Shown: positions 13,343 through 18,433 of the stretch, in pieces
Layout of the letters: each line of letters begins with the position of its first letter
Numbering within the stretch: the stretch's first letter is position 1
NCBI GenBank assembly: GCA_903889745.1
Contig: CAISYO010000097.1
Coordinates: 1 to 33,371 of the forward strand
From: an uncultured Bacteroidota bacterium
Lineage (GTDB): Bacteria; Bacteroidota; Bacteroidia; Flavobacteriales; Flavobacteriaceae
Direction: 5' to 3'
Length of the DNA: 33,371 bases
Notes under the pieces: generated by a model
What the model was told of the DNA's origin: nothing
Database searches by the model: none
What the model saw: the letters and a program-made list of their open reading frames with translations, nothing else
Translations under genes and position numbers: made by a program

Positions 13343-16051
13343 TTATTCTAACGACAATGTGATTTGTCCGTCTTCATCTAATTCAGTTTGAATATCGTCT
13401 GAAAGATTACTTTCATCTGAAACTTCCATTTCTTCAGGAACTATTTCTTCCGGTTCTTCATACGGTAATGATTCTAATAAATTGATTTGTTTCAATTTAT
13501 CTGCGGTCAATTGATTACCTAAAGCTTTAATTCCTTTAACAGCTATAAATTGCTCTAAATCAATTGTTTGATTTTCTTTTTGAATTCCTTTTACTTTGGT
13601 AAAAATTACCTCAGCAACCGGACGCCAATCTGTTGAAACGATTTCTAATTGTGATTTCTCATGTTCAGTGATGAAGATTTCTTCTTTGTTTTCATTTTCA
13701 ACTAAGAAACGTTTCACAAAATAACGGTCTTTTTCGCCACAATAATAAATACATGAAACCGGCTTATTTGGATTCCATTTTTCCAACACTATCATATCTT
13801 CTTCGAAATGCGTTGTCAATTCTGGAATAATGGTTTTTAGTTTTCCCGATTGATTCACAATCAGCAAACGATCATTTGGGCGGAATTCACCCAACAATTC
13901 CCCTCTTCCATCTACATTCAAGCGTTGTACTGTGTCATCAAACCAAACTTTTCGTGGACGCAACGTTGAAATTCCTTTCTCTTTAAGCTCTATTTTTTTG
14001 ATTGGATATTTGGTCACGGTATTGCCTCGTGAAGCCCTTCCTTTGATAGCAATATCAGTGAAATCAACATCCCATTTTAGTTTTTTCACGCTACCTACTT
14101 GACGTAATAAAATCGTTACTACTTCGGCTTCACCATTTGGATTGGCAGAAAAATACAGTACCATGGAACCTTTATTTTCTTGTGTTAAATCGTAAAATTT
14201 ATCACGAGTAACACCCGAAACATTGAAGCGTTTTATAAAAGTAGAACCGTTATTACCATCACGATACATCATGTTGTAAATTGTTCTTTTGTCGTTTTTA
14301 TCAAAAACAGCAATATGAATAATGTCTTTTCCAACGAATTTTTTGTCATCCACTTTTGCTACCATCATTTTTCCATCGCGAAGGAAAACAATTACATCAT
14401 CAATATCTGAACAATCAGCTACATATTCGTCTTTCTTTAAACCCGTTCCAAAGAACCCTTCTTCCCGATTTACATATAATTTTGTATTTCTTAAAACTAC
14501 TTTTGTAGCCTCAATAGTATCAAAACTTCTTAATTCTGTTTGACGCTCGCGCCCAATTCCATATTTATCTTTTAATCTTTGAAAGAAATCTATCGTGTAC
14601 TCAATAATAAGGTCCAAATGGTATTTCACTTGTTCCATTTCGGCTTCCAATTTCGAAATTGCATCATCCGCTTTATCCGAGTCGAAACGCGTAATACGAA
14701 TCATTGGAATTTGTGTCAATTTTTGCAAATCATCGTCATTAATCTCCCTAACAAATGATTTTAAAAACGGCTCAAATCGGTCATACATATATTTATACAA
14801 CGATTCTCTATCGGAATACAATTTGAAGTCGATATACATTTCTTCACGAATGAAAATCTTTTCTAAAGTTGAGAAATGCCATTTATTTTCTAATTCGTCT
14901 AACTGAATTTCCAGTTCACGTTTGAGCAAATCAACCGTTCTATTGGTCGAAATTTTCAACATATCTGAAACACCGATAAACAAAGGCTTATGATTTTCAA
15001 TTACACAACCTAGAGGCGCAACCGAAGTTTCACAAGCGGTAAACGCATACAACGCATCAATGGTTTTATCAGGAGAAACGCCCGGCGGAAGATGAATTAA
15101 AATTTCAACCTCAGCAGCCGTATTGTCTTCGATTTTCTTGATTTTGATTTTCCCTTTTTCGTTGGCTTTCAAAATACTATCAATCAAGGTTGATGTATTG
15201 GTTGAAAACGGAATTTGGGTTATCACCAACGTTTGTTTGTCTAATTGACCAATTTTTGCACGCACACGCACACGACCACCGCGTAATCCATCATTGTAAT
15301 TGGAAACATCTGCAATACCTGCGGTTGGGAAATCAGGAAATAAGGTAAAAGGTTTCCCTTTTAATATTTTGATAGATGAATCTATTAATTCATTAAAGTT
15401 GTGCGGTAACACTTTTGTCGATAAACCTACGGCAATACCTTCGGCACCTTGCGCCAACAGCAAAGGAAACTTTACTGGAAGATTAATTGGTTCCGCACGA
15501 CGACCATCATAGGACATTCCCCATTCAGTAATTTTTGGAGAATACAACACATCGTGACCAAATTTTGAAATTCGGGCTTCAATGTAACGGGAAGCAGCAG
15601 CACTATCTCCTGTTAAGATATTCCCCCAGTTTCCTTGCATGTCGATAATTAGGTCTTTTTGCCCAATTTGCACCATAGCATCACCAATACTCGCATCTCC
15701 GTGAGGATGATATTGCATGGTGTGACCCACGATATTCGCCACTTTATTGTAACGACCATCATCTAACTCTTTCATAGAGTGCATAATACGACGTTGCACC
15801 GGTTTAAAACCATCTTCAATCGCAGGAACTGCTCGTTCTAGAATTACATACGAAGCGTAGTCCAAAAACCAATCTTTGTACATTCCTGTAACTTTGGTAA
15901 TGGTGTCTTCTGGGTTTTCGTTGTTTTCGTAAAAATGATGTCCTGTAGAAACACGAATATCGTCAAAACCTTCCTCGTTAGTAGATTGGTCTTGGTTATC
16001 GAAATTTTCGTCTTCGTTTGGAATGATGTTATCTTCTTCTTCGTCTTTCAT
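13343..16051 (-). CDS. parC: DNA gyrase/topoisomerase IV subunit A (ParC-type)
   Basis: 902 aa; YASYVILERAVPAIEDGFKPVQRRIMHSM, PHGDASIGDAMVQIGQ, SRYIEARISKFG (catalytic Tyr). Confidence 0.92.
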   Translation of the reverse strand: MKDEEEDNIIPNEDENFDNQDQSTNEEGFDDIRVSTGHHFYENNENPEDTITKVTGMYKDWFLDYASYVILERAVPAIEDGFKPVQRRIMHSMKELDDGRYNKVANIVGHTMQYHPHGDASIGDAMVQIGQKDLIIDMQGNWGNILTGDSAAASRYIEARISKFGHDVLYSPKITEWGMSYDGRRAEPINLPVKFPLLLAQGAEGIAVGLSTKVLPHNFNELIDSSIKILKGKPFTLFPDFPTAGIADVSNYNDGLRGGRVRVRAKIGQLDKQTLVITQIPFSTNTSTLIDSILKANEKGKIKIKKIEDNTAAEVEILIHLPPGVSPDKTIDALYAFTACETSVAPLGCVIENHKPLFIGVSDMLKISTNRTVDLLKRELEIQLDELENKWHFSTLEKIFIREEMYIDFKLYSDRESLYKYMYDRFEPFLKSFVREINDDDLQKLTQIPMIRITRFDSDKADDAISKLEAEMEQVKYHLDLIIEYTIDFFQRLKDKYGIGRERQTELRSFDTIEATKVVLRNTKLYVNREEGFFGTGLKKDEYVADCSDIDDVIVFLRDGKMMVAKVDDKKFVGKDIIHIAVFDKNDKRTIYNMMYRDGNNGSTFIKRFNVSGVTRDKFYDLTQENKGSMVLYFSANPNGEAEVVTILLRQVGSVKKLKWDVDFTDIAIKGRASRGNTVTKYPIKKIELKEKGISTLRPRKVWFDDTVQRLNVDGRGELLGEFRPNDRLLIVNQSGKLKTIIPELTTHFEEDMIVLEKWNPNKPVSCIYYCGEKDRYFVKRFLVENENKEEIFITEHEKSQLEIVSTDWRPVAEVIFTKVKGIQKENQTIDLEQFIAVKGIKALGNQLTADKLKQINLLESLPYEEPEEIVPEEMEVSDESNLSDDIQTELDEDGQITLSLE

Positions 16052-16102
16052 ATCTTTGTAGCACTATGTTACTCAAAGTTTTACACTAAGTTTCACAATG
16101 TT
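16052..16102 (-). repeat. ACTTTGTG-type repeat, copy D, directly upstream of parC ATG
   Basis: Minus strand TAACATTGTGAAACTTAGTGTAAAACTTTGAGTAACATAGTGCTACAAAGAT-ATG; 39/50 ungapped matches to 16475-16527. Confidence 0.8.
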
Positions 16103-16474
16103 ATAATATTAATCTTTTAATTCCGTCTTTTAATGATTTTTTATAAAAATTTAAAAGTAAACCTAATCTACATTCCGAAAGTCTCATATAAGTTAAACAT
16201 TGTGCTGTATGCTCTAATGTAAACTCTTCAACGACTTTCAATTCAACAATAATCTTATTATTTACAAGTATATCAACTCTGTAGCCTCAATCCATTTAAT
16301 ATCTTCATAAACAACTGGAAATGCTTTCTGTTGTTTAACTTCTAAACCGCACTTCGTTAATTCATAGGCTAAACATTCTCTATACACTTTTTCCAACAAT
16401 CCTGAACCTAACTTTGTATGAACTTTGTAAGCACAATCCAAAATGATTCGGCTAATTTCATTTTCTTCAGTCAT
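16101..16474 (-). pseudogene. GxxExxY-family protein gene, disrupted by a single-nucleotide frameshift
   Basis: Frame 1: MTEENEISRIILDCAYKVHTKLGSGLLEKVYRECLAYELTKCGLEVKQQKAFPVVYEDIKWIE, then off-frame stop. The next frame continues GYRVDILVNNKIIVELKVVEEFTLEHTAQCLTYMRLSECRLGLLLNFYKKSLKDGIKRLIL*. Shift near 16285-16291. Confidence 0.88.
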
Positions 16475-16527
16475 ATTTTTTGTATCACAATATTACACTA
16501 AGTTATTCACTATGTTTCGCAATGTTT
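16475..16527 (-). repeat. ACTTTGTG-type repeat, copy U, directly upstream of GxxExxY ATG
   Basis: Minus strand AAACATTGCGAAACATAGTGAATAACTTAGTGTAATATTGTGATACAAAAAAT-ATG. Confidence 0.8.
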
Positions 16528-16532
16528 AATAA

Positions 16533-16579
16533 ATCTTGGTGTGACTTTGTGTTAAACTTTGAGAAACTTTGTGCTACCA
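16533..16579 (+). repeat. ACTTTGTG-type repeat, inverted copy I, adjacent to parE stop
   Basis: Plus strand CTTTGTGTTAAACTTTGAGAAACTTTGTGCTACC aligns with copy D CTTAGTGTAAAACTTTGAGTAACATAGTGCTACA (28/34). Confidence 0.75.
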
Positions 16580-18433
16580 TCACTTCTCCACTACATCCAA
16601 TTCTACTTTCAAATTGTTAATGATAAACTCTTGTCGGTCTGGGGTATTTTTACCCATGTAGAACTCTAACAAGGTTTCAATTGAAGTAGCTTTATCTAAC
16701 ATGACTGGATCTAATCGAATGTCTTGCCCGATGAAATGCTTGAACTCATCTGGCGAAATTTCCCCTAATCCTTTGAATCGGGTGATTTCTGGTTTTGGCT
16801 TTAGCTTTTCAATGGCATCAACTCGTTCTTGATCAGAATAACAATAAATCGTTTCTTTTTTATTTCGCACACGGAATAAAGGCGTTTGTAAAATATACAA
16901 ATGTCCGTCTTTAATCAACTCAGGGAAAAACTGCAAGAAAAACGTAATCAATAATAAGCGAATGTGCATACCATCGACATCGGCATCGGTTGCAATTACT
17001 ATATTATTGTAACGCAAATCGCCCATATCTTCCTCAATGTTTAATGCTGCTTGTAATAAATTGAATTCTTCGTTTTCGTACACAATTTTCTTGGTCATTC
17101 CATACGAGTTCAAAGGCTTACCCCGTAAACTAAACACCGCTTGCGTATTCACATCACGACTTTTAGTAATCGAACCCGAAGCCGAATCTCCCTCGGTAAT
17201 AAAAAGTGTACTTTCTAAACTTCTTGGATTTTTAGCATCGGTTAAATGCACACGACAATCGCGTAATTTTTTATTGTGAAGACTGGCTTTTTTAGCACGG
17301 TCTTTGGCTAATTTTCTAATTCCTGAAAGCTCTTTACGTTCGCGTTCGGCTTGTAAAATCTTACGCAATAATGCATCAGCTACTTCTGGGTTTTTATGTA
17401 AAAAATTGTCTAACTTCGTTTTGATGAAATCATTCACAAATGAACGTACCGAAGGACCATTCGGACCAATATCGGTTGAACCCAATTTGGTTTTGGTTTG
17501 TGATTCAAAAACAGGTTCTTCCACTTTAACAGAAACTGCTGAAACAATCGACTTACGTATATCAGAAGCTTCAAAAGGTTTGTTGTAAAACTCTTTGATG
17601 GTTTTTACAATCGCTTCACGAAAAGCACCTAAATGCGTTCCTCCTTGCGTGGTATTTTGTCCATTGACAAATGAATGGTATTCTTCTGAATATTGCGATT
17701 TACTGTGTGTAATTGCCACTTCGATATCGTCGCCCAACAAATGAATTGTTGGATATACCATATCGTCTTCGTGAATCGCTTCTTCTAATAAATCTTTTAA
17801 ACCGTTATCTGAAAAATACTTTTCGCCATTGTAAAAAATAGTCAATCCTGTATTTAGATAACAGTAATTTTTGAGCATCTTGATGATGTACTCATTACGG
17901 TATTTGTAGTTCTTGAAAATCGCTTCATCGGCAACAAATGAAACTTTCGTTCCTTTTCGTTTCGTAGTTTCTTGAACGTCTTCTTCTAACGTTAGATTTC
18001 CAGCAGAGAATTCCGCTGCTTTTTGTTGGTTATCACGCACCGATTCTACTCGGAAATAATTAGAAAGTGCATTAACTGCTTTGGTTCCTACACCATTTAA
18101 ACCAACCGATTTTTTGAAGGCTTTGGAATCGTACTTTCCACCCGTGTTCATTTTAGAAACAACATCAACGACTTTTCCTAACGGAATACCTCGACCATAA
18201 TCGCGCACCGTTACGAGTTTATCTTTGATGGTAACTTCGATGGTTTTTCCGGCACCCATGACAAATTCATCAATACAGTTATCCAATACTTCTTTTAATA
18301 AAATATAAATACCATCATCGGGCGACGATCCATCACCGAGTTTTCCGATATACATACCGGGACGCATACGGATGTGTTCTTTCCAATCGAGGGAACGTAT
18401 ATTGTCTTCGGTATATTGATTTTGATCTAACAT
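16580..18433 (-). CDS. parE: DNA topoisomerase IV subunit B
   Basis: 617 aa; [66 protein letters not shown]. Confidence 0.95.

Follow-up and report, generated by a model that had tools for sequence, protein, structure and literature searches.

Mirror-image repeats around GxxExxY genes in many phyla suggest a type of mobile genetic element that has been overlooked

A GxxExxY gene lies between parE and parC in the window, by which we mean the whole 33,371-nt contig of an uncultured Flavobacteriaceae bacterium that was analysed here, and copies of a repeat of about 50 nt stand on both sides of it. This arrangement raises the question of whether the gene and the repeats belong together and, if so, what kind of element they form. 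To our knowledge, no function has been established for GxxExxY proteins or for the S23 proteins that are considered further below, although both are found in many genomes. An earlier note on this DNA had proposed a cassette-style insertion, in which a gene arrived with its own leader and a start-proximal sequence was retained ahead of the host gene parC. Our analysis suggests that GxxExxY genes flanked by mirror-image repeats, which occur in many phyla, represent mobile genetic elements of a type that has so far been overlooked.

The ORF coordinates agree with the minus-strand order parE, GxxExxY, parC (Table 1), and the repeats described in the earlier note are real. Copies U and D, aligned in the same orientation without gaps, agree at 40 of 51 positions, with a local score of 51 against a best of 30 in 1000 shuffles; copy I, beside the parE stop, is indeed inverted and scores 44 against D, where the best of 1000 shuffles reached 21. 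The I/U pair taken alone is at chance level (score 20, compared with 22 in shuffles). D and I form the longest and top inverted repeat of the 33-kb window, with 51 nt, 76% complementarity and 418 nt between the arms, and D shares 2 nt with the end of the GxxExxY stop codon. The symmetry of the window is chiefly inverted: I and D are the outer palindrome arms around the GxxExxY gene. What had been taken for a leader retained before parC is the right arm of the element, which ends at the parC ATG by chance, and this part of the earlier proposal has to be abandoned.

Table 1. Parts of the parE-parC junction, in positions of the window
Feature	Coordinates	Strand	Basis
parE, host gene upstream of the element	16580..18433	-	ORF, 617 aa
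Left arm I of the palindrome, GTAGCACAAAGTTTCTCAAAGTTTAACACAAAGTCACACCAAG, beginning at the parE stop	16533..16579	-	inverted match to D
U, additional right-arm copy, ending at the GxxExxY ATG	16475..16527	-	direct match to D
GxxExxY / PDDEXK_3 gene, frameshifted	16101..16474	-	PF13366 and TIGR04256 matches, both halves
Frameshift site, 1 nt (AAA; AAAA in the G012 copy)	16295..16297	-	alignment with G012
D, right arm of the palindrome, ending at the parC ATG	16052..16102	-	inverted-repeat scan and alignment
parC, host gene downstream of the element	13343..16051	-	ORF, 902 aa

The family assignment of the inserted gene holds, but the window copy is frameshifted. Its N-terminal half (16262-16474) covers PF13366 positions 2-57, and its C-terminal half, in a different frame (16101-16286), covers positions 61-117; both halves exceed the curated PF13366 / TIGR04256 cut-off, and intact relatives reach up to 150 bits. 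Compared with the intact copy in the relative G012, the gene is short of one A in an A-run near 16295-16297, and because the source is a draft metagenome-assembled genome (MAG), the frameshift may be either a mutation or an assembly error. Across 86 sequences of the family, the residues of a PD-(D/E)XK active site are kept (E in 85, D in 86, E in 85, K in 86, Q in 81 and Y in 83), so that E, D, ExK and QxxxY are each present in at least 94%. An AlphaFold2 model of GxxExxY has a mean pLDDT of 95, and its nearest solved folds are SSO0001 (probability 1.00, E 2.6e-3), which we take to be a Cas4 protein, and lambda exonuclease; the E-value of the SSO0001 match is weak, and the match gives no substrate. 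A sequence search for a solved homologue returned none, weak Cas4-type profile matches were obtained for one of three members, and a profile search matched the window gene neither to Y1_Tnp nor to any transposase family. We describe GxxExxY as a predicted nuclease of the Cas4/RecB-type PD-(D/E)XK group with an intact active site. It resembles Cas4, lambda exonuclease and RecB in the active-site pattern E-D-ExK-QxxxY and in the fold, Cas4 SSO0001 being the top PDB match; unlike these nucleases, it is a stand-alone protein of 120-130 aa that lies inside palindromes, and no CRISPR or recombinase partner was identified. Two other candidate roles were rejected, namely phage cargo (only 2 relatives in IMG/VR) and a known defence gene (just the weak Cas4-type matches in one of three members).

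The arms are not peculiar to the window. GxxExxY genes were found in 246 of 300 Flavobacterium genomes, with 2-11 matches per genome, fragments counted, in the 14 genomes studied. When the sequence before each ATG was compared with the reverse-complemented stretch behind the stop codon, and the 99th percentile of shuffles was taken as the cut-off, inverted arms were detected around 64% of 86 Flavobacterium GxxExxY genes, compared with 1% of 162 neighbouring genes; direct flanks exceeded the same percentile in only 26% of the 86. Thus, of the earlier expectation that other GxxExxY loci would carry U- and D-like repeats, the presence of flanking repeats at most loci stands, but significant direct repeats are confined to about a quarter of them; a derived insertion is likely, but the general rule is an inverted arm pair and not a direct-repeat cassette. 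About a third of the genes have no significant arms, and these arms may have decayed. Across phyla, 61% of 77 named loci lie above the 99th percentile of shifted controls, compared with 1% of the controls, and so do 13 of 18 loci outside Bacteroidota. The 77 loci include Acidobacteria, Planctomycetota, Chloroflexi, Ignavibacteria, Desulfobacteraceae and a cyanobacterial bin; single host names need care because several of these loci come from MAGs, and the arms in a Rhizobium bin (L236) are of the Flavobacterium type. The arms consist of short words, among them CGCAAAG, CACAGAG, CACATAG, CGGATT and CACGAATT, which recur with a period of 9-12 nt and a second peak at 21-22 nt in Flavobacterium and in other phyla, that is, at roughly one word per helical turn. 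In several clades a short motif resembling 'ACGCCAA/ACGCCATA' was also seen directly ahead of the GxxExxY ATG (L009, L016, L072, L033, L070 and L078).

The arm words follow the protein clade. For genes at different sites, arm similarity increased with protein identity (rho 0.256; the maximum of 500 permutations was 0.079). With same-site pairs left out, arms were shared by at most 2% of pairs below 50% protein identity, by 22% at 65-80% identity and by 46% at 80% identity or above (13 pairs); when same-site pairs were included, 46% of cross-genome pairs at least 60% identical had arms in common, and paralogues within one genome did so in 0-3% of pairs. The intergenic region before a SUI1-like gene, a name inferred from sequence, holds three GxxExxY clades, each with its own arms: GCACGCGGATAAAACGGATT arms in G241, G067 and G189 (clade A), GGAACACAGATTTGAG-type arms in G200 and G164 (clade B) and GAACGCGGATAACACTGATT-type arms in G023 and G032 (clade C), with no GxxExxY gene at this site in G115, G012 and the window genome, G000. 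Because three clades at one site each have their own arms, the arms appear to move with the gene. The comparison shows that gene and clade-matched arms constitute one element, which is dispersed, varies between close relatives and, at fixed intergenic sites, is present, absent or of another type as a whole.

The parE-parC junction was then compared among related Flavobacterium genomes, of which 29 junctions were read initially and further ones were added. A GxxExxY gene with CACAAAGTT-type arms occupies this junction in eight species (G000, G012, G200, G032, G178, G212, G126 and G120), with an intact orthologue in G012 (L066) and G200 (L031). The empty sites that the earlier note had called for exist: G241, G115 and G067 have neither the gene nor U nor D, and the start of parC is 98, 99 and 92% identical, respectively. 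Neither of the two observations that the earlier note had listed as counting against its reading was made. A short intergenic sequence, 'TACTGAA..TTCAGCATAA', is common to many species and absent from those that bear the element. In five relatives (G012, G200, G178, G212 and G126) a left arm is followed by a right arm, the gene and a second right arm, and U in the window is therefore explained as an extra right arm; in G120 the complete gene comes after a truncated copy of the left arm and gene start, with about five copies of the right arm. Because one clade and one arm type are found in all eight species, the insertion between parE and parC may be old and inherited vertically with losses. 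Such tandem right arms, with a constant spacer, number about five at L311 (G120), where the truncated copy also lies, about four at L391 (G164) and about two at L043 (G200); at L014 the right arm is repeated together with the gene's 3' end. The junction is a general hot spot, at which other species have either a nucleotidyltransferase paired with a substrate-binding protein (HEPN/MNT-like) or a PDDEXK nuclease of the YhcG type; such other cargo was seen at L046, L048, L057 and L063 and at L047, L049, L050 and L056.

Arms also occur without a gene. The pattern AACCRCARAGN{1,5}CRCARAG reaches up to 75 copies per genome, compared with zero for its reversed control in nearly every genome, and was found in 104 of 130 genomes with GxxExxY against 5 of 30 without (p about 1e-10, with genomes counted irrespective of relatedness). 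Gene-less copies are scattered between genes as compact palindromes roughly 60-130 nt long, each made of a left arm, a loop and a right arm; one of the window's arm type lies elsewhere in G012 (L333), and a further site has gene-less palindromes in some close relatives but not in others. No target-site duplication was seen at three sites compared, where the intergenic regions diverge much between species, and no clean insertion footprint was found, since occupied and empty sites differ in much of the intergenic sequence, which has been replaced. In an unbiased 800-kb scan, the only ORFs inside wide inverted repeats were those of RAYT, S23 and GxxExxY, whereas a wider scan of 1.6 Mb, for which the threshold was lowered, yielded unrelated genes flanked by repeats of one family as well, and for this reason we claim no exclusivity for these three proteins. 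Some palindromes are mosaics with the left arm of one word family and the right arm of another (L324, L325, L326, L342, L379, L382 and L396).

The known systems closest to this layout are REPtrons and TIRtrons, in which REP palindromes or long terminal inverted repeats lie on either side of a RAYT or TIRYT Y1 transposase (PMC3733652). The likeness lies in a gene between inverted palindromic repeats, in matching gene-less repeats dispersed between genes and in the coexistence of several families in a genome, every one with a repeat of its own. The GxxExxY element differs in having a PD-(D/E)XK nuclease and not a Y1/HUH transposase, and in arms built of periodic words of about 9-12 nt and not of a GTAG-tagged hairpin of 20-40 bp. 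As for the GTAG/CGTC end tag of REPs, only the left arm of the window's clade starts with GTAG, paired with CTAC inside the stem; the arms of other clades start with AACC, ACAC, GGAAC and so on. A Y1 transposase defines the REPtron/TIRtron class, and the GxxExxY element, whose protein is of another kind, falls outside it. Insertion sequences and MITEs with terminal inverted repeats are similar in that a gene lies between inverted repeats and non-autonomous gene-less copies exist, but the GxxExxY element has no transposase and no visible target-site duplication, its arms are degenerate and periodic, and its insertion sites are replaced and not cleanly interrupted.

Our preferred reading, to which we assign a probability of roughly two in three, is that these elements are REPtron-like mobile palindromes with a PD-(D/E)XK nuclease in the place of RAYT, and that the window copy has decayed; mechanism and movement are what we infer from comparing sequences. 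The window element comprises a left arm, an extra right arm, the GxxExxY nuclease gene and a right arm. GxxExxY would be an active nuclease resembling Cas4 and lambda exonuclease that reads the arm words of its own clade on DNA and cuts or trims the palindrome ends; in this way it would cause the palindrome, either alone or together with the gene, to be copied or inserted via host repair, and GxxExxY would then have the role that has been proposed for RAYT transposases on REP palindromes.

For the detailed route, homing and direct-repeat cassette exchange are live alternatives. GxxExxY might instead act as a homing endonuclease that cuts the centre of palindromes spread by other means, the gene being copied into the loop from an occupied palindrome. 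The gene does sit between the arms where gene-less palindromes have their loop, and mosaic palindromes (L326, L342/L324, L325) fit breaks at the centre; however, resident arms would be expected at a shared site unless conversion tracts cover them, and the three clades before the SUI1-like gene each have their own, while the fold is that of Cas4 and lambda exonuclease and not of a known homing endonuclease, and we consider homing unlikely. We place lower still the possibility that the gene and one right-arm copy move between right-arm copies and leave U and D behind, a reading in line with the earlier cassette: the U/D match is strong, the left-right-gene-right order recurs, G120 and G164 have right arms in tandem, and recombination of two right arms would give a gene-less palindrome, but significant direct flanks surround 26% of GxxExxY genes and inverted ones 64%.

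GxxExxY could also be a passenger that only rides between palindromes spread by a RAYT transposase, replication slippage or template switching. Such a role is compatible with the Y1/RAYT gene with inverted flanks and the RAYT-type repeats found in the same genomes, and with the other ORFs sometimes met between repeats in the 1.6-Mb scan, yet the arm words go with the GxxExxY clade and not with the genome, arm abundance goes with GxxExxY presence, and the association holds across phyla, which makes a mere passenger very improbable. Least probable of all, and hardly credible in our view, is an element useful to the host, such as an operator of the nuclease, a terminator or an RNA structure between parE and parC. 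Intergenic palindromes could in principle fold if transcribed, but as RNA the upstream palindrome folds no more stably than shuffled sequences do (z -0.18), Rfam gave no family and nothing near threshold, and G-U and A-C mismatches between arms are about equal (56 and 70), and we rejected an RNA role of the arms; because there is no G-U excess among the mismatches, the symmetry looks to be at the DNA level. Close relatives that have no palindrome at parE-parC, and the scatter of gene-less copies, likewise speak against a host function. In G200, whose genome has both GxxExxY and S23 palindromes, a Y1/RAYT transposase gene with its own inverted repeats lies at G200:C1:235805-236478 (L187).

A second family has the same layout. 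S23/23S-IVP genes (PF05635), whose protein is unrelated to GxxExxY, are likewise multi-copy in Flavobacterium, where inverted arms surround 76% of 55 of them; outside Flavobacterium, 36% of 22 S23 loci score 28 or more, compared with 0 of 43 controls. Their flanks have a sharp 7-nt period (z about 16-17) inside and outside Flavobacterium. A Mantel test of S23 arms against protein was not significant overall; among pairs 65-80% identical, 40% have arms in common. S23 four-helix-bundle genes between inverted arms of 7-nt words were observed in intergenic regions at L086-L115, L150-L175 and L350-L374. In Coxiella, an intervening sequence (IVS) of the 23S rRNA carries an S23 ORF in a loop between terminal inverted repeats and has been called selfish, with tandem heptamers ahead of the S23 start (PMC4990558), and these heptamers resemble the 7-nt words at the intergenic S23 genes described here. 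The GxxExxY element shares with this IVS an ORF between terminal inverted repeats, but the window gene lies between parE and parC and not in rRNA, encodes GxxExxY and not S23, and seems to have its symmetry at the DNA and not the RNA level, with no RNase III excision implied.

We tentatively propose, at somewhat less than even odds, that palindromic mobile elements of two new and mutually unrelated classes, spread across many phyla, each have a dedicated protein, GxxExxY in one class and S23/IVP in the other, which reads the periodic word of its class (about a helical turn and 7 nt, respectively), and that together the two may lie behind many intergenic repeats of the CGCAAAG/CAGAG type. In the literature open to search we found neither a published account of the association of GxxExxY with palindromes, of which an earlier description is possible, nor a named owner of the degenerate CGCAAAG/CAGAG intergenic repeats; the names of the protein families turned up there only in unrelated senses. 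The tie between clade-specific arms and a nuclease with an intact active site offers a testable function for GxxExxY, would add a non-transposase enzyme to the few proteins linked to mobile palindromes, and carries the long-standing question of 23S rRNA intervening sequences over to the genome as a whole. Two further arrangements were seen in G042: a cluster of small genes (G042:C1:966532-972479, L417) is spaced by inverted repeated copies resembling 'GGGCACGGATTGCAAATCCGCGCTATCGG', and an ankyrin-repeat gene (G042:C1:959684-961388, L416) lies in a 180-nt inverted repeat that opens with 'AACACATAGAAACATAG' words, which are an arm type of GxxExxY.
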